Shown piece after piece: positions 10,405 through 58,778 of a stretch of DNA of 64,000 nucleotides. Below the pieces are notes generated by a model. It made no database searches and was not told where the DNA came from. It worked only from the letters and a program-made list of their open reading frames with translations. Where the stretch lies: NCBI RefSeq assembly GCF_027924965.1, contig NZ_AP027056.1, positions 1,736,001-1,800,000 of the forward strand, read 5' to 3'. A program made the translations under genes and the position numbers. How positions within the stretch are numbered: position 1 is the stretch's first letter; every line of letters begins with the position of its first letter. This stretch comes from Limnohabitans sp. TEGF004. Lineage in GTDB: Bacteria; Pseudomonadota; Gammaproteobacteria; Burkholderiales; Burkholderiaceae_C.

Positions 10405-11247
10405 TCACTTGTGACAAATTAAACAAGAACCTCCCCCCTCATCCTCACCGTAAACATCATCAATATCTTCAGGGCAAGTTCGAACGGGTCTTAGTGGATT
10501 GATTGGAATTGAGGCTTTGGCACGGGCGCGTCTCTTTTCATAGTCTTCAATGATTTGCGCGATCCGCTCCGGTTTTTCCATCTCGATCAGTGATTCGCCA
10601 GCAGACCAAGTGAAAGGCGAACCATGCTCTAACGCATCTTTCTCCAACGACTTAGCTTCTTCAAACGCTTCAGGGTGTCGCTCTCGCAATCGCACCCATT
10701 CAATTTTCTGCTGGAAGAAGCAAAACGTACATCCACTACGTGACCTCCATTCATAGTACTTCGGATATCCGACGCCAGAAGATTCCAAAATATCAACGAC
10801 GGCTGGCTTATCAATACCGGCCTCTCTAAAGGGAAGCTTCACACTTAAATTCTCTTGCTTCGATGAATAGCCCTCACGGAACTCCTCGTCAGCTCGAATC
10901 GCAACATACGAAGTAACTTTTTCACCCGCCAACAGCATCGGCTTTATCCATTGTTCAAATGGAGTCAACTTAAGCTTTCTTGTACACCAACGTGTTTGAG
11001 GAGACGGCAAAAAGTGGTTGTATTCACGCAACCAAAAATCGAAGCCGCGTCGAGGATTTAATCGCTCGATTGGTTTCCCTAAGTAACCTTCTAATCGTCC
11101 AAGGAACTCATAAACCTCAGGAAGCTCTTTGCCTGTATCGGTGAAGAAGTACTCGATGTTTAGCTCAGGGTGAGCTTGACGCATGTAGACAGCGAGTGCG
11201 GCACTGTCTTTTCCTCCTGACAGTCCTAAGACATGGCGTTCAGACAT
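10405..11247 (-). CDS. sspD: SspD-like PAPS reductase/ATP-pyrophosphatase
   Basis: PP-loop protein of the PAPS-reductase/DndC superfamily, 280 aa. The ATP-binding SGGKDS is at residues 10-15, Cys88 sits in RWCTRK, and CxxC pairs at 173/176 and 275/278 plus Cys258 could bind a metal or Fe-S cluster. In Ssp and Dnd systems this enzyme adenylates the DNA backbone and takes part in sulfur insertion. The start at 11247 was chosen because AGGAAAG lies nine bases upstream and the ATG overlaps the sspC stop by 8 bp. It is the last gene of sspBCD and converges on the restriction operon. Confidence 0.8.
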   Translation of the reverse strand: MSERHVLGLSGGKDSAALAVYMRQAHPELNIEYFFTDTGKELPEVYEFLGRLEGYLGKPIERLNPRRGFDFWLREYNHFLPSPQTRWCTRKLKLTPFEQWIKPMLLAGEKVTSYVAIRADEEFREGYSSKQENLSVKLPFREAGIDKPAVVDILESSGVGYPKYYEWRSRSGCTFCFFQQKIEWVRLRERHPEAFEEAKSLEKDALEHGSPFTWSAGESLIEMEKPERIAQIIEDYEKRRARAKASIPINPLRPVRTCPEDIDDVYGEDEGGGSCLICHK

Positions 11248-14566: not shown

Positions 14567-15485
14567 AAGCTACTCGAATCATTTCGCGGCGTAACTTCTC
14601 TGAGTCACCCGGTTGTTTATGAACTTGGCGCAATCCGGCTGTATCAGTCCAGGCCAAAAAACCTTTAGTCAGATCACTTAGAACCATCAATCGCTCAGCG
14701 ACAGAGTCTTCATCAAGTTTGAAAACACGTCCCGGCGATCCCTCACCATAAGCAACAGTCTCAAACGCTAATGAACTTAGACCTGCGTCTGTGTTTTCCC
14801 AAAAATCAAGAAGCGCGTATGCAAACATACCGTCATGCAAAGTTGCTTTGGATCCTCGGCGGAATGCATATTGCCCCTTATGGACTTCTTGCAGCAATCC
14901 AAGCTCACCTAATAGTGGCTCAGCAAAATCTTCAGGCGAACCACCCGCAAATCGAGGTGCATAGCTTCGTAAGCAAGTTTCGATATCACGCGACAAAGTT
15001 GACGCTGAAAGTTTGCGTTTTGGCTCTAGCTTTCTTGCGAAATCTGCTAGAGGAGCCTCAAGTTCTTGTCGAGTAAAAGTTGGGGCAGTTACTTGATTGA
15101 ACAGCCAACGCCATGTTGTGGACCGAGCACCCCGTCCGGCCAATAACCAATGAGCAAGCCATGCCGATGTAGGGTTCTCTGCATACGGATCTAATCCGCT
15201 GTCATCCAAAATTTGGATTGCAATTGGCGATATGGAAAAACTGTCAGGATGTTCAGCAGACTCCCTGAAGACATCACACGCCAAAGCCCAATGACGGATC
15301 GAGCTAACCATGTTTTTACCAACACCAAAAGTCGCAATAGCACCTTCATCTGTGAAGATTGCCTTTGGCACCTGCATCGAGGAATCTGCCTTATCAAAGG
15401 CTTTTTTCAGCCACATTTGACGAAGCGGGAATGTCTCATGGCCTGAGAAGTGAGCACCGCTGCTCGACCTAGTTGTTTTACGCAT
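14559..15485 (-). CDS. sspB: SspB-like DUF4007 DNA nickase
   Basis: A 308-residue DUF4007 protein with the family signature FSGHETFPLR at residues 13-22. DUF4007 proteins next to a PAPS-reductase-like enzyme are SspB, the nickase that starts single-strand phosphorothioation. It heads the sspBCD operon. No clear Shine-Dalgarno site precedes the ATG. A TAAAAT box at 15492-15497 sits so close that transcription from it would be leaderless or nearly so (inference). A perfect inverted repeat at 15504-15524 overlaps this putative promoter. The cysteine desulfurase partner SspA is not in the window. Confidence 0.8.
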   Translation of the reverse strand: MRKTTRSSSGAHFSGHETFPLRQMWLKKAFDKADSSMQVPKAIFTDEGAIATFGVGKNMVSSIRHWALACDVFRESAEHPDSFSISPIAIQILDDSGLDPYAENPTSAWLAHWLLAGRGARSTTWRWLFNQVTAPTFTRQELEAPLADFARKLEPKRKLSASTLSRDIETCLRSYAPRFAGGSPEDFAEPLLGELGLLQEVHKGQYAFRRGSKATLHDGMFAYALLDFWENTDAGLSSLAFETVAYGEGSPGRVFKLDEDSVAERLMVLSDLTKGFLAWTDTAGLRQVHKQPGDSEKLRREMIRVAYE

Positions 15486-17285: not shown

Positions 17286-19565
17286 TTATGTTTGATCAGC
17301 GGCGTGAACTGCGACACTTTCTGCAACGCAGGTCACCTCCACCAAATCAGCTCGAGGCTTCACACTCATGACGCGCGCCATCTGGGCCCAGGTCTGCCCC
17401 ACCCCAAATGCAAAGTGCGTTCGCTCCTCACCTCCACCGGTTTGGAGTGCAATGCTCGGAGCTTGCTGCAGCACTGCATGTCGCTCTGTCGCTCCGAGCG
17501 TCACACCTATTGGGTCAGTCACAGAACCATCTACGCGTCTCAAAGCGATGTAGTGATTCGCCCCTGTCTGCCAAGGCAAGCGTTCAGAACAAACTAAGAC
17601 TTTTGATGCACCATCCCAAGACAAGGCCTCACCACTGACGCCCCAGCTAGGCATGTCATGGCTGATGGCTACCAAGTCCCCATAGGTCGGGATGAGCCCT
17701 TCAAGCTCTGTCCTAAAAGTGATGATTCGCCTGCGGTACCGATTGGCCGCTGCGATGTACTTGCCCTCGCGCATAGCTTGGAACTTGTCGGTGCAACCAA
17801 AGAGCTTCAAGCGAGCAGGTTTAGACAGGGCCGACCCCGCGAGGGCCACCGTGACCTCATCAGGCTTCCAGCTCTTGGGATTGAAGTATTCAACCGTAAC
17901 CGCATCCGCTGTCGCATCCCCCGGCATCACGTACTGAATCTTCAAACTGCTGCGCACGATGTTTCGGGTGGAGAACAAGGCCACAGGGATGGTCTTGGGT
18001 TCATCTCGAACAATGCGCACAATGCCGCCTTGCAGGAACGGAACCGCACGTCCAGCTCTAGCAATCTGCCCCATGGCGTCCCAAACCGTTAGGTTCTGGT
18101 CAAACACGCCATTGAACGTATCACCACGCGCAGACCACACGCCGTCCAGTCGACCGAGTGCATTCAAGTCAATCTTTGCATCAGGCAACCCTGCCCCGTA
18201 GCTCGAGCGCGCTGCATCTGCAAATGCCCAAGCAATCGAGCGAGTAGCTTGAGGTGAACTCCACCCTGTGGTCTTGGACCAAACAGGGAGTTTTCGTGTG
18301 ACCAAGCAGTTCACCAAACGAGATGACCGCTGTGACAAGTTATCTGTTGCCCGCATGCGCAATGCCAGCAAGGTCAAGTCCGATGGCAATGATGGATTTA
18401 CCAGATAGCCCTTTGCTTGCCCCCAGCGAAGCTCATGCCCCGCACGGTTGCTGGTGTCTTTGGTATCTAGCCTTTGAACGCGCACCTCATAGCGACCTGC
18501 CCCTACCACGTACTTGTAGGTTCTGCGTTGTGCCGTATTGGTGGCAGCCGAATAGGACTCATCCGCAAGATGGATCCATCCCGAGGTGGCATCTCCATCG
18601 TCGTTGATGGTTCTCGCCTCAACACGCCACTGGACCGCACGACTGTCTAGCGTCCCACTGTCTGTTGCGTAGTAAAGACCACGCATCATGACCACATCAA
18701 TCCCTATTTGATTGATTTGAGTCCCCACAGGATTCAGCGCAAATGGTCCGATGATGCTGCCGCCCGTATCAGCGACGGCAATCAACTCCTGCCCGGTGAC
18801 TTCAGCAGCAGTCACCACATCGTTGTTGAACAAGGTGTTTTGACCGCCTGGCTCAATCACTTGAGCCTGTACTTCTTCGAACGAAGAAATGGGACTGTCA
18901 TCAATTGAGAGCTCTTCAAACTGAAAGTGCCCAATACCGATCACATGGAGCTGGTGCAGGTACTCCTCGTTGTCGACGTACTCCGTATAGGGCATCGCTG
19001 CCAAATCCGGATAAATCAGATGCTGCCCATACACAACAGGAATCGGCTGGGACAGTCGCCCATAGTTGCCACGCGCCTGCAGTGAGTAGGTTGGACTTGG
19101 TGAAGATGAGCTGGCTGTGGCATTGGGCAGGCTCTGATTGGGCAGCGGCACCAAGGCATTCACGATGATGGAACCCGTCACAGCAATTGCCGTTGAGGCC
19201 ACCGAAGTCGCGACTGCCCCCGAATACCCGAACGAAGCGGCAAGCTCAGCACCATAGGCATTGGCCACGACCAATACGGCAATCATCAAAACCGTCTGCA
19301 ACGGGTTCTTACCCCCGCCTCCACCACCTTGCGGCAGCGACACCAATGCAATGACATCTCCAGCCTCAATGAGGGTCACGCAGCGTTCAGCCATCAGCAC
19401 AGGCCTACCGTTCTTGAGCACCAGCGTTGGTTGCTCAAAAACAATCTGCTCTTGTTTCATCCATTGGCTGATGGTTGGATTGCCCTGAACGTGATGGACA
19501 TCACGCTCATGGGGATCGAATGGGTTTCGAAGCCAAACTACGACACCGTCATTGCTGCTTGGCAT
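17286..19565 (-). CDS. tail tip / host-specificity protein (TipJ-like)
   Basis: A 759-residue protein of the lambda J/TipJ type that forms the tail tip and usually contacts the host receptor. It begins with a small beta-rich domain of the lambda I kind, then a Gly-run (GGGGGGK near 77) and a hydrophobic stretch at about 90-137. The body carries the TipJ-like VVYGQHLIYPDLAAM region and several beta-rich modules. It is shorter than lambda J, so receptor binding may be shared with the fibres encoded upstream. It overlaps the NlpC/P60 gene by 28 bp. Confidence 0.85.
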   Translation of the reverse strand: MPSSNDGVVVWLRNPFDPHERDVHHVQGNPTISQWMKQEQIVFEQPTLVLKNGRPVLMAERCVTLIEAGDVIALVSLPQGGGGGGKNPLQTVLMIAVLVVANAYGAELAASFGYSGAVATSVASTAIAVTGSIIVNALVPLPNQSLPNATASSSSPSPTYSLQARGNYGRLSQPIPVVYGQHLIYPDLAAMPYTEYVDNEEYLHQLHVIGIGHFQFEELSIDDSPISSFEEVQAQVIEPGGQNTLFNNDVVTAAEVTGQELIAVADTGGSIIGPFALNPVGTQINQIGIDVVMMRGLYYATDSGTLDSRAVQWRVEARTINDDGDATSGWIHLADESYSAATNTAQRRTYKYVVGAGRYEVRVQRLDTKDTSNRAGHELRWGQAKGYLVNPSLPSDLTLLALRMRATDNLSQRSSRLVNCLVTRKLPVWSKTTGWSSPQATRSIAWAFADAARSSYGAGLPDAKIDLNALGRLDGVWSARGDTFNGVFDQNLTVWDAMGQIARAGRAVPFLQGGIVRIVRDEPKTIPVALFSTRNIVRSSLKIQYVMPGDATADAVTVEYFNPKSWKPDEVTVALAGSALSKPARLKLFGCTDKFQAMREGKYIAAANRYRRRIITFRTELEGLIPTYGDLVAISHDMPSWGVSGEALSWDGASKVLVCSERLPWQTGANHYIALRRVDGSVTDPIGVTLGATERHAVLQQAPSIALQTGGGEERTHFAFGVGQTWAQMARVMSVKPRADLVEVTCVAESVAVHAADQT

Positions 19566-19981
19566 GGCTCACCTCGAAATGCATAAAACCCCTCGACACG
19601 CCAACCGTGACGGTCAAGCGCCCACAAGTCCTGAAACACCACACCCACACCATGCGCGCAATGGAGCACGCCTCCACCATCGATGTCTAGCCAAACACCG
19701 ACATGCACCGGATATCTGGACTGACGCATCAGCACAGCATCCCCATGTTTTGGCGTTGGTACGCACTGCCAGCGTTTGCGCTCAGGGTGCTCGTTGAATG
19801 TCCTGAGCACCACTCGCAGATCCAGCGCATCCACAGGGATGAGCGGAAGCACTCGTCCGAAGTGATTTCTCTGCACCCATAAAAAAAGGCCCCAGCAGTC
19901 AAATGACTCGGGGCCTCGTGCGCCTGCTATCCACGGGCGACCGATGTATCGATGCGCCCAGTAACCGTCTGTTGGTTTCAT
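19538..19981 (-). CDS. tail-associated NlpC/P60 peptidase
   Basis: A 147-residue NlpC/P60 cysteine peptidase of the phage tail (lambda K C-terminal domain type). Cys29 in FDCWG and His93 in VHVGVW form the expected catalytic pair, with His107/His110 as a possible third residue. It cleaves peptidoglycan cross-links during DNA entry or supports tail-tip assembly. Its place between the DUF1833 gene and the tail-tip gene matches other TipJ-type siphophages. Confidence 0.85.
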   Translation of the reverse strand: MKPTDGYWAHRYIGRPWIAGARGPESFDCWGLFLWVQRNHFGRVLPLIPVDALDLRVVLRTFNEHPERKRWQCVPTPKHGDAVLMRQSRYPVHVGVWLDIDGGGVLHCAHGVGVVFQDLWALDRHGWRVEGFYAFRGEPCQAAMTVS

Positions 19982-19991
19982 GACTTACCCA

Positions 19992-20534
19992 TCACCGGGC
20001 AAGTCCCGGAAACTCTGTTGATGTGTACAACCGACCTGGAAACGCTTTATTTCCGATATCGACCATGCGCGCTCTTGCGGTCACTCGCATCACAACTGCC
20101 TCCACCTCGGTCAGTACCAACGTGATGGGAGGATCCATCTGCGGCCCCTCCACATCGTTTGACAAGTACGGGCGATAGGTCACTTCGATGGAAGCTTCTG
20201 ACTCGGATGCAGCATCAAGGTGTTTGACGATCTCGCGTGAAACGTTGTCCAAGGTCAACACGACCTCAGGAACAGGTGCGATGTCCACAGGCGGCAAATC
20301 CAAATCGAACCCCATGGCCACGAACCTCACCGTTTCACTTGAGTTCAACGGTGCTGAGGCTTCGAGGCGAGCGAAGAGGTCTTGTTGGTCTCGCACCACC
20401 CTGATAGCTGTTGTCACACCCGACTCATTTTTAAAGTCAGGGTGGCGCAGCTCCAAGGTGTGCAGGATCACAACATCAGAAGGTGCGCTCGCATATGCCT
20501 CGCGCAACGCCTCTGAAAGCGTGACATCAGGCAT
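19992..20534 (-). CDS. DUF1833 tail-tip protein
   Basis: A 180-residue protein with the DUF1833 pattern: an N-terminal LxLREAYAS helix, then a beta-rich body with strands such as ILHTLELRHP. DUF1833 genes stand in the lambda gpL position, before the NlpC/P60 and J-like genes, and are presumed tail-tip hub parts. Its ATG overlaps the radical SAM stop by 8 bp. That ties the modification module into the structural tail operon. Confidence 0.75.
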   Translation of the reverse strand: MPDVTLSEALREAYASAPSDVVILHTLELRHPDFKNESGVTTAIRVVRDQQDLFARLEASAPLNSSETVRFVAMGFDLDLPPVDIAPVPEVVLTLDNVSREIVKHLDAASESEASIEVTYRPYLSNDVEGPQMDPPITLVLTEVEAVVMRVTARARMVDIGNKAFPGRLYTSTEFPGLAR

Positions 20535-21948
20535 GCGTCACCCGAACTGGAAATGGTTTCACAACTCGATCGAGAGGCGCAACGACGCTCATGTCACCGT
20601 TACTTTCCACGAAATCAAGGCAAATGACTTCAACTGCATCAACTCCGTCACGTCGAATCGATTCCCCCTCGATGCGCGTCAAAATCAAACCTTGGGTCTG
20701 GTAATAGATCGCAGCCGCCAAGACAGCCAGGTTGTGGCTGAATGAGTTATCACAGGCAGCACCCCAATAGTCATCTTCTAGGAATAGACATGCCCCTTTG
20801 CATAACTGAGCGACTGGGCAGCGAGGACATTCGCTTCTCGTACTAAAGTGATAGGCCGTATTGAGGCTGATTTCTTCAAACTGTTCAACATGGCCAATTT
20901 TGTGATTTGTCGAAGCACTCATGTTTTGACAAGTCATCACATTGCCCTTCATATCTACGGCAATCGAATCATCTCTGTCCATTCCACACTTCTGACCAAG
21001 AGCGTCTAGAGGTCGTGACTGTGCTTGCGATCTCATGAATTCATCGACTTTGTCACGCATCGTCCCGACTGCCATGCCAGATCCAGTCACCAGCTCCCAA
21101 AACACCCGGTGCATAAAGCGCTTGTGATCACTGCCATGCAGAGAAAGAGATAAGCCACTCTGGTCGTAAGGAAGCATCACCTCCTCCGTGGCGAGGACGA
21201 TGGCTTGCACAGGCAAATCTAACTTTTCGGAAAAGTACAACCGAACTGCCTTGAGCGACTGATTGTTACGGTGAAGCACCGTGTTGAAACTCATTCGATC
21301 AATCGACATCCGACGGGATACCCACCGTTTGATCTGAGCCAAGTTTTCAGGTTCATTCAATGGATCAGGACCACGGTAACTCTGTGCAGGCCCGTCATGC
21401 GACAAACCAATCCCCACGTCCAACTGTTCAACCCAAGCAAGTTTTTCATCATCAAAGAGTGAACCGTTGGTAACGATCGATAGCTGTGCATTCGGATATT
21501 TAGCTTTGACAGCCTTGCCCAAAGGCTTGAGTAGCTTCCAGTAGACGAAAGGCTCTCCGCCCCAAAACTCAATCTTTACGCCTTCTCCTCGTCCATCATC
21601 ACCACCCGCGAACCAGCTCTGCAGTTGATTCATAAATGGCGCAACATCTTCGGGGTGACCATCAATGTCATGGGGCTGATGCGCTTGGGAGCAATACTGG
21701 CAAGCGTAGTTGCACTTGAGACCGAGCTGAAGCTTCAAGTGTCGGATATCTTTTGACTTGCCTGCTGGGTTACGCGGATGGTGCAAATGCCAAAACGCAC
21801 CCCACTGCATATCTGACTGTCGAGGAAATGCTTGAGGCAGCGGCAATGGCTCACCGTTATCTGCCCAAACCAAGCTGGAATCTTCAGAGTCGTAGAGCGC
21901 CTGTTTTACAAACCCGTTCTGGCCGTTCAAGGTTAAATTAAATTTCAT
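20527..21948 (-). CDS. radical SAM/SPASM peptide-modifying enzyme
   Basis: A 473-residue radical SAM enzyme with a C-terminal SPASM domain. The CxxxCxxC cluster motif is at Cys79/83/86 and the GGEP motif at 130-133. The SPASM cysteines are at 321, 340 (in G-x4-C), 374, 377, 383, 387 and 399 in the C-x2-C-x5-C-x3-C arrangement. SPASM enzymes use auxiliary Fe-S clusters to crosslink or modify ribosomal peptides and proteins, often at Cys. It closes an overlapping operon with two dioxygenase-like proteins and a Cys-rich fibre, which is the obvious candidate substrate (inference). The ATG overlaps the previous stop (ATGA). Confidence 0.92.
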   Translation of the reverse strand: MKFNLTLNGQNGFVKQALYDSEDSSLVWADNGEPLPLPQAFPRQSDMQWGAFWHLHHPRNPAGKSKDIRHLKLQLGLKCNYACQYCSQAHQPHDIDGHPEDVAPFMNQLQSWFAGGDDGRGEGVKIEFWGGEPFVYWKLLKPLGKAVKAKYPNAQLSIVTNGSLFDDEKLAWVEQLDVGIGLSHDGPAQSYRGPDPLNEPENLAQIKRWVSRRMSIDRMSFNTVLHRNNQSLKAVRLYFSEKLDLPVQAIVLATEEVMLPYDQSGLSLSLHGSDHKRFMHRVFWELVTGSGMAVGTMRDKVDEFMRSQAQSRPLDALGQKCGMDRDDSIAVDMKGNVMTCQNMSASTNHKIGHVEQFEEISLNTAYHFSTRSECPRCPVAQLCKGACLFLEDDYWGAACDNSFSHNLAVLAAAIYYQTQGLILTRIEGESIRRDGVDAVEVICLDFVESNGDMSVVAPLDRVVKPFPVRVTHA

Positions 21949-22154
21949 GGTGCAACTTCCTCAAATGCAATGGGGTAAGCCTCACGACACACTTTGGCCA
22001 GATCGGCACCAGCTAATGTCTTAAGGTCAAAAATGTGACGGCCAGATGCTTTGCCATCCGTATTGATCACCAGCACGGTCATCACTAGATTTGTTTCATC
22101 CACCTGTGCTACTTCGACTTCGTAGCCATGGCGAACCGTAAGATCGAGACTCAT
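21945..22154 (-). CDS. small protein (69 aa) in modification operon
   Basis: A 69-residue, mostly beta-strand-like protein, not recognised. It overlaps both neighbours by ATGA, between an oxygenase-like gene and the radical SAM gene. The position and size would suit a carrier or recognition element of the PqqD/RRE type, but it is shorter than those domains (about 90 aa) and I see no PqqD signature, so this is only a suggestion. Confidence 0.7.
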   Translation of the reverse strand: MSLDLTVRHGYEVEVAQVDETNLVMTVLVINTDGKASGRHIFDLKTLAGADLAKVCREAYPIAFEEVAP

Positions 22155-22867
22155 TGGTCGGACTCCATAGATTTATCTTGGGTGTGAGCACGGATTTGCG
22201 CAGCAGACCAAGTTCGATCCCCGCCTTGATCGTCACGGTGCGTAAAGCGCACATTTGTGACGATGGCGACCTTGTCGCTCTCGGGATCAAACATCGGAAA
22301 TGTGGAATGCTCTAAGTAGCCCGGAAAAATGAACAACGCCCCTTGTAGGGGCGTTTGTGCAAAGAGCTTGTTTTCATGTCGGAGCATCCAATTGGCCTGC
22401 ACGGGTCTGGGATCATGGAAGCACAAAGCACCAGGCAGTCCCACCGCATCGCTACCTTCACGTGATCCGAGATGCACACGTGGGTAGTAGGTCGCCACCA
22501 ATTGGTTCCCCACATGACGGTGTGGAATCGCCCACTTACCCAAACCACGCTGGCGGTTCACGAAAGTGTTGTACGTAGCAACCAGCTCTGACGGATCAAG
22601 AGATGGATATGCTTTCTGTATGTAAACAGCAACTCTTTGCTCGATGGCTGTCAACAATCGCAGCAATGCCCGGCTAGGTTGCTCAGACATCATGGAAACC
22701 GTATCAGCTCGATGTGCCAACTTGGCAGTCGATTGCGTGTGTCGCTCATAAAAGCGTTCAGCCTCCTGTGCCAAAGTCTCACGGACATCGTCAAGCTCAA
22801 CAAGCTGATCAATCAAGATATGACTAGGCCACAGGCTCATCATTCGACACGTATCAATTGAAATCAT
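22151..22867 (-). CDS. putative 2OG-Fe(II) oxygenase (TIGR02466-like)
   Basis: A 238-residue protein resembling the TIGR02466 group of putative 2-oxoglutarate/Fe(II) oxygenases. It has an HRH motif at 116-118, a strand ending in FHDPRP at 150-155, and the diagnostic GALFIFPGYLEHS block at 176-188, then the C-terminal strand TNVRF. The histidines of HRH and LEHS are likely iron ligands. These enzymes are often phage- or tail-associated, with unknown hydroxylation targets. ATGA overlaps on both sides place it in one unit with the radical SAM gene. Confidence 0.7.
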   Translation of the reverse strand: MISIDTCRMMSLWPSHILIDQLVELDDVRETLAQEAERFYERHTQSTAKLAHRADTVSMMSEQPSRALLRLLTAIEQRVAVYIQKAYPSLDPSELVATYNTFVNRQRGLGKWAIPHRHVGNQLVATYYPRVHLGSREGSDAVGLPGALCFHDPRPVQANWMLRHENKLFAQTPLQGALFIFPGYLEHSTFPMFDPESDKVAIVTNVRFTHRDDQGGDRTWSAAQIRAHTQDKSMESDQ

Positions 22868-23658
22868 CGCGTCAAATCTCCATCAATAATCATCTGGACG
22901 GGGTGTTTGCAACCGTAAAACCTGTTTGGGCGATAGATTCGAGTCTGATGATCAAACTCAATCCAAGGCCAAACACTGAAGTGCACACTACAGCGGCTAC
23001 CTAGCCATGAATGTCGATTGATGAGGGTGTGCTTGTACTTTGAACAGTTCAGCCATAAACACTTGCCTTGGATAAAGCTCAGGTCATCCATATCCTCAAT
23101 TGACAGAACGATCCCCTGCGACACAGCCAAGCAGATGTCCAATCTCAACTCTTCAAAAAATGAAGTGTCTCGATGAGGATGAACCAGTGGCGCATTCAGA
23201 GGATTAGGAGGGACCAACACAGTGAGACGTCCAGATCCAACCGTCAAAGAGAACTGATCAAGCAAGGCCCCAAATCCGGGCAACCTTGCAACCTCTGAAC
23301 GATGAACAAAAGCCAAGTGATCTGCACCACTAAACCGTGCGGGCTCGGCGACAAGATACGGATCTATAGGTGCTACTGCCTGACCAGTTCTGGAGAGGGA
23401 TAGATTTCTGAATACACCAGGACTGGCATCACTGATTTCAGACTCCCAAACCAATGACTTGAACTCTTTGAAGGCAACGGCGAACTCGTGCGACAAATTC
23501 GAGGGAACCAGCACATGAGGCACATCCCTGATCGCAACAATGTTCTCAAGCTCTGGGTCGATCACTTCAGCGATTGCCAGCTCGAAATCCGTTTCTTGCC
23601 GCAAATAAGCAGCCACGGTCATATGGCTTGGAATGCTGTCTGCATGAACTTCCCACAT
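22864..23658 (-). CDS. aspartyl/asparaginyl beta-hydroxylase-like protein
   Basis: A 264-residue protein whose C-terminal half follows the aspartyl/asparaginyl beta-hydroxylase pattern. It has the HxD motif HRD at 162-164, LRLDICL after it, a QGKCLWLN strand at 197-204, distal His210, then R222 and the closing strand SVHFSVWPW. These are the iron and 2-oxoglutarate ligand positions of that family. Such enzymes hydroxylate Asp or Asn side chains in proteins. The nearby fibre has an Asn-Cys repeat tail, making Asn hydroxylation an attractive but untested idea. ATG at 23658 overlaps the preceding stop (TGATG). Confidence 0.65.
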   Translation of the reverse strand: MWEVHADSIPSHMTVAAYLRQETDFELAIAEVIDPELENIVAIRDVPHVLVPSNLSHEFAVAFKEFKSLVWESEISDASPGVFRNLSLSRTGQAVAPIDPYLVAEPARFSGADHLAFVHRSEVARLPGFGALLDQFSLTVGSGRLTVLVPPNPLNAPLVHPHRDTSFFEELRLDICLAVSQGIVLSIEDMDDLSFIQGKCLWLNCSKYKHTLINRHSWLGSRCSVHFSVWPWIEFDHQTRIYRPNRFYGCKHPVQMIIDGDLTR

Positions 23659-24461
23659 CAAACCACCTCCACTGATGCGCTGGTTTTGTGACTGAAATAC
23701 TTAAAGCCGACTTTGACCAAACCAACATCCCCAGAGTTGAGGCCTAGAGCTACCCAATTGAAATTCGCAACGCCATTCACGATCGGCACTTTGGTCTTTG
23801 GCAAGAACCCAGCCTCACACTCAAGGTACAAAACGCCACTTCGCGTTTCAATTGCTGGCATGTCGTTGGTCTCGTACGCAGGCTGAATCAGTCGCGCAAC
23901 ACAGGGGAGCGACTCACCAGCCGAACAAGAACTGCCCACCTCCAACTCAATCGAGGGAAGGACTGCGTTGTACAGAGACACCCTAGAGCGCACCTCTACA
24001 AATTCAGAAAACCCCTCTGGCGGCATGCTTTGCGGTGAATAGACCAAAACAGCAACCTCTTCAATCGAACTTTCTTCGAATGGCACGAAGAACAATACGA
24101 CACGAGGATGAAGGGGGCGACCAAGCAAGAAAGGGTTTTTGTGCAAATTTGTCTGTGGAAATACAGAGTGCAAATACCCTAAGTCTTCCCAGCCAAATCG
24201 CGACTCAAGCGCCCAATTGGTATGAATGCCCCAGTGCTTACCAAGATCAATGTGTGACTTGATGGCGGTTGGATCAAAAACGAATGGGCGAGATCCATAC
24301 TCTTTTTCATGCGACTCAGGATTGATACGCCATGGCGTCACCGTGATTGTTTGTGCTTGTACATCTCGCTCAACTCGGTAACTAACTGGGAACGCACCAA
24401 ATGTTTCAACTGGCGAAGGAATGTTGAACAAGCGGCCACCAATGGTGTTCGAATTACTCAT
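23658..24461 (-). CDS. unknown tail-module protein
   Basis: A 267-residue protein, not recognised. Composition suggests a beta-rich fold: an N-terminal YRVERDVQAQTITVTPWRI hairpin, then a WGIHTNW motif, a proline-bounded FFVPFEE strand, and a C-terminal immunoglobulin-like stretch ending in SASVEVV. There is no signal peptide or membrane segment. ATG at 24461 is preceded by GAGGAG seven bases upstream and lies 11 bp after the Cys-rich fibre stop. It may be a virion part, a fibre chaperone or a scaffold for the modification enzymes. Confidence 0.7.
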   Translation of the reverse strand: MSNSNTIGGRLFNIPSPVETFGAFPVSYRVERDVQAQTITVTPWRINPESHEKEYGSRPFVFDPTAIKSHIDLGKHWGIHTNWALESRFGWEDLGYLHSVFPQTNLHKNPFLLGRPLHPRVVLFFVPFEESSIEEVAVLVYSPQSMPPEGFSEFVEVRSRVSLYNAVLPSIELEVGSSCSAGESLPCVARLIQPAYETNDMPAIETRSGVLYLECEAGFLPKTKVPIVNGVANFNWVALGLNSGDVGLVKVGFKYFSHKTSASVEVV

Positions 24462-24472
24462 GACCGCGCTCC

Positions 24473-25069
24473 TCAACAGTCCGTACTGCAATTGCAATTA
24501 CAGTTGCAGTTGCAATTCGTTCGACAGTTAAAAGCCGTCGTCCCGCAATTGCAGTTGGAATATCCCCCGCAGTTGCAATTGCAGTTGCATGCTCGATACC
24601 AACGGCGGTACTCAGCACCACCAATCTCATCTTGCGCAAGGTAATAGCCGTCGTAGTTCAATACAACAGACGGAACAGCGTAGTTGCCATAACTCGTACC
24701 ACCTACCCCGTCGTACTGACCGCTATTCGCGCAGTAGTTAAAACCCAAACCCCAAGTCCACCAGTTCGCATTAGGTGGTACCCAATTGGCATTGCTTGCG
24801 CAATTGCCATTCGGCAGGTATCCATTGCAGTTGCTTGCCCGGTCGTCGTAGTACTGACTTGATCGCCCCATCTCACCGAGGTCTTGTCCATCCCCCATCT
24901 TGTAGCCAGTGTTACGAGCATCGTCACCCGTCACACTGCTTTTAAAGAGGGCCCCATTGGTCATCGTGATGGACCCGGTCATGGTTCCACCTGCTTTGTC
25001 CAACTTACCAGTAATCTCCGTCTGCAAGGCATCATCTAGCCCCGCCTTGGGGATACGTGTAATTGCCAT
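24473..25069 (-). CDS. tail-fibre protein with Asn-Cys repeat tail
   Basis: A 198-residue fibre-type protein. The N-terminus carries the phage-fibre signature DKAGGTMTGSITM (24-36). The middle is Tyr/Trp/Gly/Asn-rich with Cys81, 90 and 113. From residue 160 the chain turns into runs of alternating Asn and Cys: 13 cysteines among the last 38 residues (161, 163, 165, 167, 173, 175, 182, 186, 188, 190, 192, 194, 198). Alternating NC repeats are not normal fibre sequence, and reduced thiols at such density would be reactive on a virion, so crosslinking, metal binding or modification is likely. AGGAG precedes the ATG. It is the candidate substrate of the downstream enzymes. Confidence 0.85.
   Translation of the reverse strand: MAITRIPKAGLDDALQTEITGKLDKAGGTMTGSITMTNGALFKSSVTGDDARNTGYKMGDGQDLGEMGRSSQYYDDRASNCNGYLPNGNCASNANWVPPNANWWTWGLGFNYCANSGQYDGVGGTSYGNYAVPSVVLNYDGYYLAQDEIGGAEYRRWYRACNCNCNCGGYSNCNCGTTAFNCRTNCNCNCNCNCSTDC
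24484..24592 (-). repeat. in-frame hexanucleotide repeats coding Asn-Cys
   Basis: Clusters of TGCAAT/TGCAGT-type hexamers (+ strand: TTGCAA, TTGCAG, TTACAG units) encode the NC dipeptides. Three clusters lie at about 24484-24516, 24543-24557 and 24568-24592. Because the unit is 6 bp, gain or loss of units changes the number of NC pairs without shifting the frame. Confidence 0.8.
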
Positions 25070-25081
25070 GATTTCTCCTAG

Positions 25082-27739
25082 TTAGATGTAACGCACCACG
25101 ATCCGCGCGCTGGCGGCTGGTGCTGACGTGAATCGCAACGTTGTGCCTGAGTTCACCAAGACGTATGCATCCAGTGAGTCCTGCACCACGTAATTGACCG
25201 TGACAATCAACTTGTGAACGCTGGACGCCGCAGTACTTAGCGTGAAGTCCGTTGCAGATCCATTGCCAGTGAACACTTGCGGCGCGACGTTCGATCCACC
25301 TGCCGCAGCGGCATAGCCCTGCGCTTGATTCATGTAACTCTGAGATTGCGTCGCAGAGTTAGCTGAAGCGGTTGCCGAGGATGCCGACTGACTTGCGCTA
25401 GTCGCGGAGGCACTTGCAGATGCAGCTGCCGCCGCAGACTGTTGCGTTGCAGTTGCTGCGTTTGCAGCAATGGATTGCGCGTAATACTTGGCCGAATACT
25501 CTGTCGCACCAGAAACAGGCCCAGAAGTTTTATTCGCCCACTCCTCAGCCGCGGCTGCACCAGATTGCGCTTCCTTATCGAGATAGCGAACGCTGATGCC
25601 AACGCCATTGGCCGGAGCTGACGAAAACCTCAGCGTTGTCGTTGATGGCGTTGTGTAGGAATCAAGCGGAGCTTGTGGGACACCTGCAACCGTCACCATC
25701 AAAGCGCCGGGATAACCGACTGGTCGGCTCAGCGTGAAATCTGTCTTGACCCCGTCTCCCGTAAAAACGTCAGCGGGAATCACGGTATTGGCCGTTACTG
25801 CTGCAGCAGAGCCTGCCGCTTGCGACGCCCAATACTTTGCAGAGTAGCCGGTGCCGTCTACCGTTGCAGACGTTTTCTCCGCCCAATCTGCGGCACGAAC
25901 GGCCTGCGCCTGAGCCGCCGTTAATGCCGTTGACGCATTACCCGCACTGCTAGAAGCAGAACTTGCAGAGCTTGCAGCCGCTGTCGCACTTGCTTGTGCA
26001 TCAGTCGCTTTTGCTCCTGCCGTGCTGGCAGAAGTAGAAGCAGCCGTCGCGGATGCAGTGGCGTTGGTTGCACTGCTCGCGGCATTCGTAGCGGATGCGG
26101 CTGCAGCAGTTGCACTGGTTTGCGCATCAGTGGCTTTGGTGGAAGCTGTGGTGGCCGAGCCCGCCGCCGCACTCGCCGAACTTGCAGCCCCGGTTGCTGA
26201 GGTCGATGCAGCGGTGGCTTGCGTTGACGCCACCCCCGCAGAAGCTGCCGCATTGGTGGCTGAAGTCGTTGCATCTGTTGCTTTCGTGCCTGCTGTGGTG
26301 GCCGATGCAGCAGCTGCGGTCGCACTCGTCGCTGCATCGCTTGCTTTTGTCGAAGCTGTGCTGGCAGCTCCTGATGCGGAGGTCGCAGAAGCGGCAGCAC
26401 TTGTTGCGCTAGTCGCCGCATTGGTAGCCGATGTTGCTGCCGTATTCGCACTCGTTTGCGCTTCACCTGCTTTAGTCGAAGCCGTGGTGGCCGAACTTGC
26501 TGCAGCACTCGCCGAACTGGTTGCCGACGTCGCAGAGCTCGAAGCACCAGTAGCTTGCGTTGTTGCCACCACAGCAGATGCTGCCGCATTGGTCGCATAG
26601 GTCGCCGCGTCCGTGGCTTTTGAACCTGCCGTGGTAGCTGAACCCGCCGCTGCCGTTGCACTGGTTGCAGCATCACTTGCTTTTTGGGTCGCAGTTGCCG
26701 CCGCCGTGCTAATTGACTGTGCGTAGTATTTGGCGGAGTAATCACTCCCCGATACAGGGGCTGTGGTTTTAGTCGCCCAATCCTGAGCCGATGTGGCACT
26801 TGAACTGGCCTGACTTGCGGAACTTGCCGAGGCAGTCGCACTCGCTGCTGAGTCAGTGGCCTTTGTACTTGCCGTAGTTGCGGAAGCCGCCGCAGCCGTG
26901 GCACTTGCAGCCGAAGCTGTTGCAGAGCTCGCCGCCTCGCTCGCTTTGGTTGAAGAAGTAACAGCAGAAGTTGCCGAATTACTTGCTGATACGCCTGCCG
27001 CATCTGCTTTCGAAGATGCGGTCGTTGCGCTGGCTGCCGATGCAGAGGCACTCGTGGCTGCACCACTGGCAGATGTTGCCGCAGCACTGGCACTACCCGC
27101 TGCTGCTTGAGCTTGGTACTTTGCTGAGTACTCGCTACCTTGAACTGGCCCGTTCGTTTTGCTGGCCCAATCCATTGAGGACGCCGCACCCGTTTGACTC
27201 TCTTTGTCGAGAATTCGGGCCGTGATCTCAACGCCATTGACGGGCGCAGAACTGAAGCGCACAGTGGTCGAGTTTGCCAAGGCGTAGGACACGAACGGAG
27301 TTTGTAAAACTCCAGCCACTGTGATTTGAAGCGCACCAGGATGGCCAACTGGGTAGTCAAGCGTGAAATCCGTCAACGCCCCAGTTCCAGTCCACGTTTT
27401 GGTTGGAATGACCGTCGCGCTGGTGGCCTTGTTCGCTTCATCAATGACGCGCGTCAAAGTGGCACTTGCATCAGCCGCTTTCGTTGAAGCAAGCGTTGCG
27501 CTTTGAGCGGCATTGCTTGCCTGAGTGGTGGCAACCGTAACTTGTTGCGTTAGCTCAGTTCTTGAAGCTGCCAAGTCATCTTGAACACCTTTGATCGCCT
27601 TGGCCACCGTCTTGACCGGACCACCCTCTGTCACAACATCTGTATGGTCATTGCCATGAACGATCGAATGCAGAATCGTTGCGTCAGCAGTTGCCTTATC
27701 AACCACTGCTTCAATTTGTTGCTGTAGGTTTAAGGCCAT
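25082..27739 (-). CDS. long Ala/Ser/Thr-rich tail fibre
   Basis: An 885-residue fibre. Two or three copies of a beta-rich unit (near 115-175, 650-710 and 835-885, each with a VDxFTGxGxxTDFTLxxPVGxPGAL-like pattern) flank several hundred residues of degenerate heptad-like Ala/Ser/Thr repeats (ASATTASTKATDAxTSA and variants). Such repeats form long trimeric coiled shafts, as in lambda Stf and its relatives. The conserved WAxKTxxPVxGxxYSAKYYAQ segments recur between them. It ends 12 bp before the Cys-rich fibre, to which it may connect. Confidence 0.88.
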   Translation of the reverse strand: MALNLQQQIEAVVDKATADATILHSIVHGNDHTDVVTEGGPVKTVAKAIKGVQDDLAASRTELTQQVTVATTQASNAAQSATLASTKAADASATLTRVIDEANKATSATVIPTKTWTGTGALTDFTLDYPVGHPGALQITVAGVLQTPFVSYALANSTTVRFSSAPVNGVEITARILDKESQTGAASSMDWASKTNGPVQGSEYSAKYQAQAAAGSASAAATSASGAATSASASAASATTASSKADAAGVSASNSATSAVTSSTKASEAASSATASAASATAAAASATTASTKATDSAASATASASSASQASSSATSAQDWATKTTAPVSGSDYSAKYYAQSISTAAATATQKASDAATSATAAAGSATTAGSKATDAATYATNAAASAVVATTQATGASSSATSATSSASAAASSATTASTKAGEAQTSANTAATSATNAATSATSAAASATSASGAASTASTKASDAATSATAAAASATTAGTKATDATTSATNAAASAGVASTQATAASTSATGAASSASAAAGSATTASTKATDAQTSATAAAASATNAASSATNATASATAASTSASTAGAKATDAQASATAAASSASSASSSAGNASTALTAAQAQAVRAADWAEKTSATVDGTGYSAKYWASQAAGSAAAVTANTVIPADVFTGDGVKTDFTLSRPVGYPGALMVTVAGVPQAPLDSYTTPSTTTLRFSSAPANGVGISVRYLDKEAQSGAAAAEEWANKTSGPVSGATEYSAKYYAQSIAANAATATQQSAAAAASASASATSASQSASSATASANSATQSQSYMNQAQGYAAAAGGSNVAPQVFTGNGSATDFTLSTAASSVHKLIVTVNYVVQDSLDAYVLVNSGTTLRFTSAPAASARIVVRYI

Positions 27740-27752
27740 TAAAAGCTTTCAA

Positions 27753-28232
27753 TCACCAGTTTTCGGTGGGCAAGTGTTGATTTACCAAAATGTCAAAGTT
27801 GTCAGCTGATCGCTGCAAGTCTTCAAGTTCGCTATCGAGCAAGATGCCAAGCGCACCTTGCGTCAATGTCGGGCGATTTCTAATCTCCAGCTCACCCGTC
27901 ACTTCCCACTGGTTTTTTCGAACCAACTTGGCTTGATAGGCCTTGGTAAATCTGGCTTGGTGTGTCGCCATCCCAATGCCACCCAACAGTTCAATGTCAA
28001 ACCACTCCGCCCCCTCCTTCGCTTCGTGTTTGAACCAAGCTTCAAAGATGGCGTAGGTCAGTGGTCTCAAATTCCAGCGAACAGCCACCTTGGCAGGGGT
28101 TTGTGTAAACCGACGCCGTGCACGCGCAGCGCCTGACTCCATGTCCGTTCGAATCACCCCCTCACTTGGGGATATCTGATACCCATCGACTGTGGGAAGC
28201 GGGATCTTGTCCGGCCAAACTAAATTAGTCAT
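27753..28232 (-). CDS. minor tail protein
   Basis: A 159-residue protein beginning at the tape-measure stop (ATGA overlap). The LPTVDGYQISPSEGVIRTDMESG start and beta-rich body fit the small tail-tip proteins found between tape measure and hub genes (lambda M position). The exact family is not recognised. It probably joins the tail tube to the tip complex. Confidence 0.6.
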   Translation of the reverse strand: MTNLVWPDKIPLPTVDGYQISPSEGVIRTDMESGAARARRRFTQTPAKVAVRWNLRPLTYAIFEAWFKHEAKEGAEWFDIELLGGIGMATHQARFTKAYQAKLVRKNQWEVTGELEIRNRPTLTQGALGILLDSELEDLQRSADNFDILVNQHLPTENW

Positions 28233-30850
28233 CGCATTGCTCCTGCGGCGGGGTTGAGTCCATAGCGACGCTCAAGCGTTGGCGCAATGCCCGTGCCCTG
28301 GCCAATTGAGCGGGACATGCGGGCTTCGATTTGCTCAACGATGATGTCCAGACGCATGGAGCCATCCGCCTGTTGCGAGGACTGCACTCGCGCATCCACG
28401 CCAGAAGCGTTGTTGATCACGTTCACGGCTACGCGTACTTGCGGTTGGTTCTTTGAGGAAAGCGCCCCACCCAATGCACGCATCTGACCGGGCGTGAACA
28501 CAGCCTCACCGGGCTGGGCAATGATGGGCACCTCCCCATCGACCAAACCACCTGTGTGATAACGGGTAGCACCTGCGAAGTTGTGAAGCCCAACGGAGCG
28601 GGAAGCCAAATTGTCCGATCCAATCAAGCCACCGGTGTGCGCCACTGCGACCAAGGGATTCATAAGGTCTGTCGCACCGATTGGAACGATGCTGCCCCCG
28701 GGTGTAGGAGTGGGTGTTGAACCCAAACCGCCCAACCATCCTGCCAATGGCAAAGTGACCATCCGCTGGATCTGAATGCGCACCAGGTCAGCAATGATGG
28801 AGTTGGCCAAACTGCTGAAATCGAGCTTGCCCGTGGTCACGAACTGAACCAGCGCATCCTCCATGCCCTTGAAAGCAGAAGTCACTGCCCGCTCAGCTTG
28901 TTTGGCAGCGTTGGTGGAATCTTCCACATAGCTGCGAACAGATGAGCGCATGCCGTAATCAAAGCTACGTTGGTACTCCGCATTGGCACGAGCCAAATCC
29001 ACAATCACAGGTAACTGGCGAGACAGCGCGTGGTTGATCAGCTCGATGGCTTCGGCCTTCAGACCCGGGTCAGTGATTTGATCCGCTTGTTTACGTGCAG
29101 CGTAGGCCGCTTTCTCCAAATCGAAGCGCACTTGCATGCCCGCGCGTTCGACCTCACCCACATCAAGCATCTGACGCTTGAGCACCAGCTCCTCTTGCTT
29201 GAGTCGGTTGTTGCCGATGTAGCCTTCGGTGATCTGGTAGACCTTTTGGAGCTCTTTCTCGTACTCATCGAACTTCTTGTCCGAGACCTTTTGCTTCTCC
29301 ATGGCCTCAATGACCTGGATGTACTTCTCAGCCTCAGCCCGAACGCCCGCGTAGCCCTTCTTCTCCAAGTCAAGCGCCTTGGCTCTTAGCTCGGCAGCTT
29401 CACCTCCCGTCACACGCAGTGAGCGTTGCTCAAGTTGCTTTAAGAACTGCAGGCCTTCGTTGTTCTTATCAAACCCCGAGAGGTCCATCCCCGTGGGGGC
29501 CTTTCTGGGCATCTTTGGCAAGAACTCGTCATAGATCTTTTGAACCTGTGCAGCCTGCTCTGCCGTATCGAGGACAAACTTCTGCCCCATCACCCGAACG
29601 GTGCGACGTTGCTCGTCGAAGAACTTCTCAATAGAGTTCACATAGCCCGGGTTGTCATTGATGCGTGCCAGGCGCTCATTGGCCGATTCGACAAACTTGT
29701 CACGAGCGCTTTGCAGCTTGGCAATCTCTGCATCAATCTGCTGTTCGTTGTAGCCCATGGACTTCATCGAGCGCAACATGTCGCTCTTCATCCAAGTCTC
29801 GACGTCCTTGCTCACCACCGACAAACTATCGAATGGCTGAGAGATCACCCGCTTGGCCAACACCGCAGACTCGGCGATGAAGCCAAGCCCCTTGGCAACG
29901 TCTTCAAGGTAGTTGAGGACTTGCTGGCGGTTGTTGCTGATGGCAATGAGCTCGCTGCTAAAACCGCCCGTCTCCGTCTTGGCAATGAAGAGGTGATCGG
30001 TCAGGTCGGCCAAGATTGGAATGAATGCCGAGCCAATTTGGCGCTGTACACCTTCGTTGACTGCGTGCAGTCGCTTGAGGTTGTCGTTGAACTCTTCAGA
30101 AGCTCGGGCAGCATCTGCCGACATCACTAAACCCAAACGCTTGGCTTCTTCCATCATGGCCGTGATGCCCTCACGCCCTTGGTTGAGCATCGGGATCATG
30201 TCCAGACCGTTCTTGCCAAAAAGCTTCACAGCCAATGCTGCCTTCTCGGCGCTGTCAGGCATGGCAGAGAACTTGTCTGCCAGGTCGAGCAAGACTTCTT
30301 CGGTCGGGCGAATCTGGTTATGTGCATCCACAGCAGAGATGCCAAACGCACGCAACGCTGCGCTGCCCTCGCCCCCTTTGACTTTCGCGTCAAACATGGC
30401 AGTCGACAAGAACTTCAAAGCCTTGGTCAAACTCTCCGTGCTCACATCCGACAACTCAGACGCATAAAGCAGCGCAGACAAAGCTTCTACGGACACAGCC
30501 GTTTTTTGAGAGAGCTTGTTGAGCTCTTCGCCCACCTCAGCCACGGGCACGATCAACTGGTGCATGCCGTAGCCTGCAGCGGCAATCGAAGCTCCAGCAA
30601 TCAAACCTGCGGGACCGAGTTTTCCCAACACGGTACCGAGCATGCCAAGACGTGACGTTGCATCTTCCATTTGGGCGAATGCATCGTTCGCAGCTTTGGA
30701 GACGATCTGCAAACCCGCCGATGCTGGGTGGGAAGCTGATTCAATGCGCTTGAGGGATTTCTCTCCGGCTTCGCCCACATCAGACAACTCAGCCTTGACT
30801 TTGCCGCCATCCACCACCGAGAGTCGAATTGCGAGATTGCGTTCAGCCAT
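28229..30850 (-). CDS. tail tape measure protein
   Basis: An 873-residue tape measure protein. It has an N-terminal helical region, a hydrophobic stretch at about 75-105 (GPAGLIAGASIAAAGYGMHQLIVPVAEV), then long charged helices at about 380-650 and a glycine-rich hydrophobic C-terminal region. Position after the G/GT chaperone genes and length agree with a siphophage tape measure, which fixes tail length and is ejected before DNA. The length predicts a tail of roughly 130 nm by the usual 1.5 angstrom per residue rule (inference). Confidence 0.9.
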   Translation of the reverse strand: MAERNLAIRLSVVDGGKVKAELSDVGEAGEKSLKRIESASHPASAGLQIVSKAANDAFAQMEDATSRLGMLGTVLGKLGPAGLIAGASIAAAGYGMHQLIVPVAEVGEELNKLSQKTAVSVEALSALLYASELSDVSTESLTKALKFLSTAMFDAKVKGGEGSAALRAFGISAVDAHNQIRPTEEVLLDLADKFSAMPDSAEKAALAVKLFGKNGLDMIPMLNQGREGITAMMEEAKRLGLVMSADAARASEEFNDNLKRLHAVNEGVQRQIGSAFIPILADLTDHLFIAKTETGGFSSELIAISNNRQQVLNYLEDVAKGLGFIAESAVLAKRVISQPFDSLSVVSKDVETWMKSDMLRSMKSMGYNEQQIDAEIAKLQSARDKFVESANERLARINDNPGYVNSIEKFFDEQRRTVRVMGQKFVLDTAEQAAQVQKIYDEFLPKMPRKAPTGMDLSGFDKNNEGLQFLKQLEQRSLRVTGGEAAELRAKALDLEKKGYAGVRAEAEKYIQVIEAMEKQKVSDKKFDEYEKELQKVYQITEGYIGNNRLKQEELVLKRQMLDVGEVERAGMQVRFDLEKAAYAARKQADQITDPGLKAEAIELINHALSRQLPVIVDLARANAEYQRSFDYGMRSSVRSYVEDSTNAAKQAERAVTSAFKGMEDALVQFVTTGKLDFSSLANSIIADLVRIQIQRMVTLPLAGWLGGLGSTPTPTPGGSIVPIGATDLMNPLVAVAHTGGLIGSDNLASRSVGLHNFAGATRYHTGGLVDGEVPIIAQPGEAVFTPGQMRALGGALSSKNQPQVRVAVNVINNASGVDARVQSSQQADGSMRLDIIVEQIEARMSRSIGQGTGIAPTLERRYGLNPAAGAMR

Positions 30851-57066: not shown

Positions 57067-57067
57067 A

Positions 57068-58770: not shown

Positions 58771-58778
58771 GACGCACC

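Follow-up and report, generated by a model that had tools for sequence, protein, structure and literature searches.

Organization of the locus

The window analyzed here, a stretch of 64,000 nucleotides from Limnohabitans sp. TEGF004 (contig NZ_AP027056.1, positions 1,736,001 to 1,800,000), contains a minus-strand cassette within a lambda-like prophage, composed of the gene of a Cys-tail protein and five overlapping genes (Table 1). All six genes lie on the minus strand at the positions given in an earlier note made from the sequence alone. That note placed the genes downstream of the fibre gene in one overlapping operon; with corrected starts their overlaps are 1–4 bases, and a gap of 11 bases separates the stop codon of the fibre gene from the next start. 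For the Ig-like gene, ATG 24461 is more likely the start and is favored over TTG 24497; the start of the Asp/Asn-hydroxylase-like gene is more likely at ATG 23658. An Rfam search of positions 19000–28500 identified no RNA element.

Table 1. The cassette and its surroundings, in window coordinates and in the direction of transcription.
Feature	Coordinates	Strand	Evidence
Tape measure protein (context)	28229..30850	-	
Upstream fibre stalk gene, 885 aa, Phage_T7_tail-type modules, Ala-rich repeats	25082..27739	-	PF03906 above cut-off; phrog_3279 tail fiber
Fibre-type protein, 198 aa, Asn-Cys tail, predicted substrate	24473..25069	-	No Pfam/NCBIfam match; weak PHROG fibre match
Cys-rich tail codons (residues 161-198, 13 Cys) plus stop	24473..24589	-	Synonymous divergence in relatives
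Beta-rich protein, C-terminal Ig-like domain (residues 169-267), predicted partner of tip or enzyme	23658..24461	-	
Asp/Asn-hydroxylase-like protein, predicted Fe(II)/2OG oxygenase	22864..23658	-	Conserved HxD/H/R; weak 7v4f match
Predicted Fe(II)/2OG oxygenase	22151..22867	-	phrog_81 8.9e-14; PF13759 below cut-off; weak 3bvc match
69-aa protein, role unassigned, only in nearer relatives	21945..22154	-	
Radical SAM/SPASM enzyme, 473 aa	20527..21948	-	phrog_1802 3.2e-57; TIGR04085 above cut-off; 5wgg/4k37 profile matches
DUF1833 tail-region protein, next gene downstream (context)	19992..20534	-	PF08875 5.1e-41

The fibre-type protein and its Cys-rich tail

The 198-residue protein contains 16 Cys residues, and the alternating Asn-Cys tail reported in the earlier note is present as described, with 13 Cys among its 38 residues. 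Searches of Pfam and NCBIfam with this protein gave no match; it carries the short fibre motif KLDKAGGTMTG and has a weak match to phrog_8443 (0.027), and its neighbors are tail genes. Among open reading frames of at least 50 residues on either strand of the 64-kb window, it is the only one with a run of four or more XC units. Its tip-family relatives number 125, of which 120 are listed. The AlphaFold model of the tip leaves the tail without a fold (pLDDT under 40) and is poor overall (pTM 0.43).

Comparison of the 38 tail codons with those of eight near relatives reveals 4–21 synonymous and 0–2 non-synonymous changes, indicating purifying selection on the protein sequence of the tail, which rules out a chance repeat as its source. 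An antisense or wrong-frame echo was also rejected: in 193 loci, run-bearing reading frames number 173 on the plus strand versus 15 on the minus strand, ten of these 15 lying opposite an NC gene and two being the window gene itself, in loci that were in reverse orientation.

The radical SAM/SPASM enzyme

The designation of the enzyme as a textbook radical SAM/SPASM protein is borne out by the presence of CX3CX2C and the full SPASM motif in its sequence. The SPASM domain model TIGR04085 scores 36.3 bits against a cut-off of 27, and PF04055 is borderline, at 29.3 against 29.5 bits in one scan and 31.6 (above cut-off) in another. CX3CX2C together with CX9-16GX4C and CX2CX5CX3C is found in the window enzyme and in 86 of 87 representatives of the family. 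The single representative lacking the motifs (L127) has a broken enzyme frame that was left uncorrected. The family profile aligns over the core and SPASM domain with 5wgg, which we take to be the SCIFF maturase, and with 4k37. Among the matches listed, covering 25 of 46 families, none of the named maturase equivalogs (TIGR04064, PapB, QhpD, SCIFF, and others) is above its cut-off; the best equivalog score there is 67.1 against 518.7 bits, and PapB scores 62.1 against 340. Because the enzyme falls far under every specific maturase cut-off listed, family membership does not reveal which reaction it performs. In a sample of 398 genomes from the phylum, the family is detected at E ≤ 1e-60 in a single one, that of the window.

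Association of the tail with the enzyme

The earlier note had proposed that the phage uses the SPASM enzyme to modify the tip of its own fibre and had advised a search for phage operons pairing such enzymes with NC-repeat proteins. Such operons were found repeatedly, and the proposal withstood the comparison of genomes, in which homologous enzymes consistently adjoin NC-repeat proteins.

Starting from the tip family, an enzyme gene is located downstream on the same strand in 101 of 113 loci (window included), and the 12 loci without one all have under 1.7 kb of downstream sequence. With at least 5 kb downstream the enzyme is present in 85/85 loci, or 72/72 by distinct tip sequence; the 85 include only loci of that length, and a looser rule also admitted any locus showing the enzyme. 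The counts of 101 and 85, and that of 223 carriers below, are redundant in that some contigs were sampled twice (e.g., L017 and L035), and the reduced sets comprise the 72 distinct tip sequences and 87 enzymes under 90% identity, for which the copies with the most upstream sequence were chosen.

Starting from the enzyme, an (xC)n or tip-family reading frame occurs within 9 kb upstream in 79 of the 87 non-redundant enzymes; of the remaining eight, six have at most 2 kb of upstream sequence, and two (L167, L184) have degenerate Cys tails. Among the best 80 of at least 568 confirmed enzyme stretches, 53 have 7 kb upstream, and a script counted tails in 48. The five script misses (L164, L167, L173, L181, L184) have shorter or degenerate Cys tails on reading, which leaves L025, where no NC protein was found in the 8 kb upstream of the enzyme. 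L025 is among the 48 script-counted tails by a run that looks like chance. It is absent from the 87-enzyme set as a near copy of L038, whose enzyme is 97% identical and is accompanied by an NC protein.

Starting from the tail DNA, reading frames with a C-terminal NCNCNCNC are followed by the enzyme in 40/40 cases with 5 kb downstream and in 65/66 with 3 kb, and no enzyme reading frame was found on the opposite strand in this search. Thirty of those 40 tails are attached to bodies beyond the recognition of the tip model. Overall, 16 of 92 C-terminal tails lack the enzyme, 15 of the 16 having under 3 kb downstream; L297 has a tail and 3.6 kb downstream, yet no enzyme. Internal run matches with 3 kb downstream are accompanied by the enzyme in one case of seven (L305, where the run is 17 residues from the end). 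This search returned at least 120 stretches, of which 118 were used (80 in some analyses), and several contigs are shared with the earlier sets. At E ≤ 1e-10 the enzyme model lacks complete specificity, another radical SAM protein of the same genome scoring 6.7e-22, but 58 of the 65 enzyme matches in the tail-DNA search are below 1e-100.

In isolated phages, an INPHARED search with the tail protein gave no match, and a search with the enzyme at E ≤ 1e-20 identified JWF (two records) and 2-1, which keep the tail-enzyme pair at 38% enzyme identity. A threshold of E ≤ 1e-5 adds one unannotated fecal phage record at 20% identity, together with 15 records of Campylobacter phages in which an identity of 27–28% extends across a quarter of the protein. 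Dozens of other phages have a Cys tail paired with a radical SAM gene, on proteins that are otherwise unlike one another.

Because the pairing holds from the tip family, from the enzyme, and from the tail DNA, with runs that are mostly C-terminal, a role of the tail as the substrate is very probable. On sequence grounds, the reading that we consider probable is that the C-terminal (Asn/Ala/Asp)-Cys tail is acted on by the downstream SPASM enzyme, which is predicted to form thioethers along it; the modification itself, the thioether bond, and the location in the virion are what we infer.

Alternative roles for the tail

The XC units of 90 unique tails have a strict two-residue period, with X being Asn in 391, Ala in 84, and Asp in 35 of 532 units, the Asn share being partly built in by a composition filter that required NCNC or at least four units. 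A tail of this kind might form a ladder within a trimeric tip, held by disulfides or binding metal or Fe-S clusters, with the radical SAM and 2OG enzymes altering it in some minor or different way, although we consider this unlikely. Alternate Cys residues on a strand could line a trimer, and in the available portion of the report on T4-type (gp37) fibre tips, iron is bound by HxH motifs, in which metal-binding side chains at the tip are likewise spaced two residues apart (PMC11705849). Those tips use His, whereas the window protein has Cys and contains no His, and hence no HxH motif, and a ladder leaves unexplained the pairing of the enzyme with tails on dissimilar bodies.

Also unlikely, and slightly more so than the ladder, is that the enzyme acts like the proteusin and YydG-type epimerases and inverts every second residue, so that D and L residues alternate along the tail, with the Cys residues present for some other purpose. 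The strict period agrees with this, the enzyme family profile also matches the epimerase YydG (8ai3, 1.2e-8), and proteusin pathways apply radical SAM and 2OG enzymes to Asn-rich alternating peptides. However, within the runs it is Cys that is fixed (by the definition of a run) and X that varies, mostly among Asn, Ala, and Asp, and Cys at every second place is needless for an epimerase.

Partner genes and carriers of the tail

The earlier note regarded two of the intervening genes as oxygenases. For 22151–22867 this agrees with a match to phrog_81 (2OG-Fe(II) oxygenase), whereas PF13759 remains below cut-off (23.4 versus 27 bits); the PDB profile match to 3bvc is weak (E 0.0056). The product of 22864–23658 has no family match in Pfam, NCBIfam, or PHROG, and its family alignment retains the H-x-D...H...R facial triad and Arg of Fe(II)/2OG oxygenases: in 19 sequences, one of them truncated, H162-x-D164 is invariant and H210 and R222 are present in at least 90%. 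A PDB profile match to beta-hydroxylase 7v4f is weak (E 0.016), no 2OG Pfam family was detected at E ≤ 1 in the 19 members, and Pfam scans of this family and the Ig-like family gave weak matches at most. Foldseek of the Ig-like protein, which covered little of its N-terminal part, returned mainly immunoglobulin look-alikes, and the JWF gene between tail and enzyme goes unrecognized by the Ig-like family (2 bits, E 0.009).

Matches to 2OG profiles occur in 25 of the 53 enzyme loci with 7 kb upstream, and a second radical SAM enzyme in 25 loci, 22 of which are without a recognized oxygenase. The oxygenases that the earlier note included in the modification system thus lie outside the predicted core of Cys tail and SPASM enzyme, and are optional. 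This patchiness, and the placement of the phage 2OG family in moron/auxiliary metabolism by PHROGs, would suit enzymes that act elsewhere, on the host surface or a small molecule, and merely share a transcription unit with the fibre. We judge this improbable, given that the association follows the tail and not one fibre body from all three search starting points.

The tail-bearing reading frames, measured stop to stop, span 67–900 residues, and the L029 protein combines an NC tail with collagen repeats and, at its N-terminus, a T7-fibre domain. In 210 of 223 reading frames no more than 20 residues separate the run from the C-terminus, and the other 13 carry an extension past the run, Hint-like in most and starting right after it; a Hint domain (Hom_end_hint) is above the Pfam cut-off in JWF and L104. 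By BLASTP of up to 95 residues preceding the tail the carriers form 14 groups. Some of these look related by eye (L199, L205, L262). That a single ancestral tail cassette was inherited whole, its association lacking functional meaning, is very improbable, for although 134 of 154 bodies form one single-linkage group and gene order is similar, there are the 14 BLASTP groups, short carriers of 67–137 residues, two tail-enzyme pairs on one contig (L085), and enzymes diverging to about 36% identity across the set.

Discussion

If the tail is the substrate of the SPASM enzyme, the enzyme would work along it, each Cys sulfur being joined by a thioether to a carbon of the neighboring Asn, Ala, or Asp. 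The available portion of one report describes a SPASM enzyme that links Cys by thioethers to Asn and Ala (PMC8188230). The oxygenases would hydroxylate Asn or nearby residues, the Ig-like protein might present or cap the tip, and in carriers with a Hint extension, self-cleavage would expose the tail. The protein would be in the virion, and the product would be a rigid tip, resistant to reductants and proteases, used at adsorption. More tentatively, and with somewhat less than even confidence, a widespread class of tailed phages may complete the virion by radical chemistry after translation, in which the SPASM enzyme would make a thioether ladder on a portable tail tag grafted onto many dissimilar bodies, oxygenases or a second radical SAM enzyme would elaborate it, and Hint domains would free some tails, yielding a covalent needle at the fibre tip.

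SPASM peptide maturases (PapB, the SCIFF maturase, RumMC2, and the nif11-type TIGR04064) have in common with this system CX3CX2C, the SPASM domain, and a nearby Cys-rich substrate gene, whereas the predicted substrate here is the C-terminal tail of a fibre-type protein in a phage operon and mostly not a short leader peptide. As in thioether RiPPs (sacti- and ranthipeptides), a predicted Cys-rich substrate is encoded near the SPASM enzyme; those peptides have a short precursor with a cleaved leader, whereas the Cys run here ends a longer protein of 198 residues. QhpD, the SPASM enzyme that introduces cross-links into a quinohemoprotein amine dehydrogenase subunit, is alike in acting on a protein subunit and not a secreted peptide, and the window enzyme matches TIGR03906 at 2.9e-14, below cut-off. 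To our knowledge, the QhpD system is unlike the window in that it has an enzyme-subunit substrate, no Asn-Cys repeat, and no 2OG enzyme, and is non-viral. Hint-domain proteins resemble the few carriers in which an extension directly follows the NC run; the window protein has no such extension. In environmental pelagimyophages, radical SAM genes occur with fibre genes in a variable host-recognition island, and the available portion of that report proposes neither an Asn-Cys tail nor a modification for these cassettes (PMC7029224).

The earlier note knew of no described virion maturation of this type, and a literature search for phage maturation of this kind likewise found no description. What is new would be the system and its role; the enzyme superfamily is known, and the chemistry may be of a known type. 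Since two isolated phages carry the pair, the idea is directly testable. If it is true, viruses apply RiPP-type radical chemistry to their own structural proteins, and new chemistry exists where a phage may touch its host. A portable tag recognized by a SPASM enzyme on dissimilar proteins would be useful for protein engineering, and phrog_1802 would gain a function, as would some phage 2OG genes currently classed under auxiliary metabolism.

Recurrence of tail and enzyme

The earlier note had counted 13 Cys in the 38-residue C-terminal Asn-Cys run (hereafter the tail) of the 198-aa fibre-type protein, a figure that a recount reproduces, and had proposed a search for SPASM enzymes paired with Asn-Cys-repeat proteins; this pairing recurs whether the search starts from the tip family (relatives of the 198-aa protein), from the enzyme, or from tail DNA. 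All 85 partly redundant tip-family loci having 5 kb of downstream sequence carry the enzyme on the same strand, no more than 6.0 kb downstream, and so do 72 of 72 when distinct tip sequences are counted under that requirement; without the length condition it lies downstream in 101 of 113 loci. In the reverse direction, a tail lies upstream of 79 of 87 non-redundant enzymes; six of the remaining eight are cut off, and in the other two, L167 and L184, the Cys tail is degenerate. The third search was seeded with the DNA of four Asn-Cys pairs, using neither tip nor enzyme, and among the matches listed a same-strand radical SAM enzyme follows no more than 6 kb away in every C-terminal match that has 5 kb downstream (40 of 40), in 65 of 66 with 3 kb, and in one of seven internal four-Asn-Cys matches with 3 kb, which are mostly chance frames. 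No enzyme was found in the sequence downstream of one C-terminal tail (L297), and no Asn-Cys tail protein was found upstream of the L025 enzyme; the enzyme of L038, a locus having the tail, shares 97% identity with it.

Genomic setting and cassette partners

The source genome (2.77 Mb, two contigs) holds a single copy each of tail and enzyme, and a lambda-like prophage lies inside the window (C1:1736001-1800000). Its minus-strand genes include terminase, portal, protease, major head protein, minor tail protein, tape measure, endolysin, and spanin; gpJ-like, NlpC/P60, and DUF1833 genes are also present. As read from the sequence, neighbouring cassette genes share a few bases at their ends; only the fibre gene is set apart from the next one, by 11 bases.

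Cassette and other features (window positions unless a locus from another contig is named)
Feature	Position	Strand	Remark
SspG	1921-3447	+	Ssp phosphorothioate defence; adjoins prophage
SspD, SspC, SspB	10408-15485	-	Ssp phosphorothioate defence; adjoins prophage
DUF1833 gene	19992-20534		flanks cassette on other side
Enzyme	20527-21948	-	radical SAM/SPASM, 473 aa
Oxygenase-type gene	22151-22867	-	predicted Fe(II)/2OG oxygenase
Oxygenase-type gene	22864-23658	-	predicted Fe(II)/2OG oxygenase
Gene after fibre	23658-24461	-	
Fibre-type gene	24473-25069	-	tail at residues 161-198
Stalk gene	25082-27739		flanks cassette on one side
ParB-like and DNA methyltransferase family matches	43021-44268	-	one protein; prophage region
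RND efflux genes	53950-60041	-	AcrB-type pump, HlyD-type adaptor, outer-membrane channel
Second radical SAM family, example	L072:11410-12450		own CX3CX2C
Non-Hint extension after the run	L101:3321-4391		
Short-ORF carrier	L199:3054-11671		82-residue NC-ended ORF, then four radical SAM genes
Short-ORF carrier	L238:243-6609		71-residue NC-ended ORF, then three radical SAM genes

Among 53 enzyme loci from the best 80 of 568 stretches, the family of the gene after the fibre is present in 43 and 2OG profiles match 25; neither of the two oxygenase-type genes is obligatory. At 25 loci a second radical SAM enzyme stands in or near the cassette, and 22 of these loci have no 2OG match. The predicted structure of the protein encoded after the fibre has an Ig-like second domain, and the proteins closest to it in full-length structural comparison are uncharacterised or unnamed viral ones.

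Carriers of the tail

Judged by sequence comparison, the tail is a portable tag: the up to 95 residues preceding it fall into 14 BLASTP groups, although on visual inspection the carriers at L199, L205, and L262 seem related despite this split. One carrier (L029) is a fibre with a T7-type attachment domain and collagen repeats, others consist of three short proteins each (L177, L179, and L182), and the shortest are ORFs of 67-82 residues with, where the contig allows, between one and four radical SAM genes after them (L199, L205, and L238). The arrangements at L199 and L238 are close to a classical RiPP cluster. The tail family also occurs on four contigs of Alphaproteobacteria MAG02 (L109, L110, L112, and L122), reflecting either several prophages or mixed binning.

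More than 100 residues extend beyond the run in 13 of 223 partly redundant carriers, and 12 of these extensions start Hint-like by eye, that of L101 being the exception. Among seven extended tail proteins scanned with Pfam, six match Hint-type models at E<=0.01, two of them (JWF and L104) passing the Pfam cut-off, and L081 has no such match at E<=0.01. Because the Hint-like part starts no more than a few residues after the run, self-cleavage would put the tail at the protein end. Extensions at L101, L204, and L303 are of a non-Hint kind opening with a CTKL- or CTEL-like motif; that of L101 has no Pfam match.

Predicted chemistry

The 198-aa protein has 125 protein-database relatives. Aligned sequences (n = 91, window included) keep N80-C81, N89-C90, and most tail Cys invariant or nearly so, and tails of near relatives differ almost solely by synonymous changes. 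The last run in each of 90 unique enzyme-adjacent tails comprises 3-11 X-Cys units, X being Asn, Ala, or Asp at 510 of 532 positions; Asn precedes 781 of 1,084 Cys in the proteins bearing them, a set chosen by NCNC or four units and therefore favouring Asn. Constant across tails are Cys at every second place and small neighbours.

Constant on the enzyme side is a SPASM radical SAM protein whose profile matches both 5wgg, a thioether-forming SCIFF maturase, and an anaerobic sulfatase-maturating enzyme across core and SPASM domain. That the tail is its substrate we predict with high confidence. Given the alternating Cys with small neighbours, a SPASM enzyme matching 5wgg, and the reported acceptance of Asn and Ala by the sactisynthase RumMC2 (PMC8188230), the enzyme would build a Cys-to-X thioether ladder processively along the tail. 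This predicted chemistry is the most economical reading, and we put the chance of thioethers in the tail at about even; epimerisation by the same enzyme is a possible alternative, as is metal binding by the Cys-rich tail.

Isolated phages

In the full-text literature as far as covered, with subscription papers and preprints outside the search, no account was found of an Asn-Cys fibre tail or of a virion protein modified by a radical SAM enzyme. Xylophilus phage Lumi, related to Achromobacter phage JWF, has been described (PMC9959647). JWF itself, a siphovirus reported to be temperate and UV-inducible (PMC3899368), encodes in order a fibre-type protein with an Asn-Cys run and Hint domain, one further gene, and the enzyme, and it offers an experimental entry point to this system.
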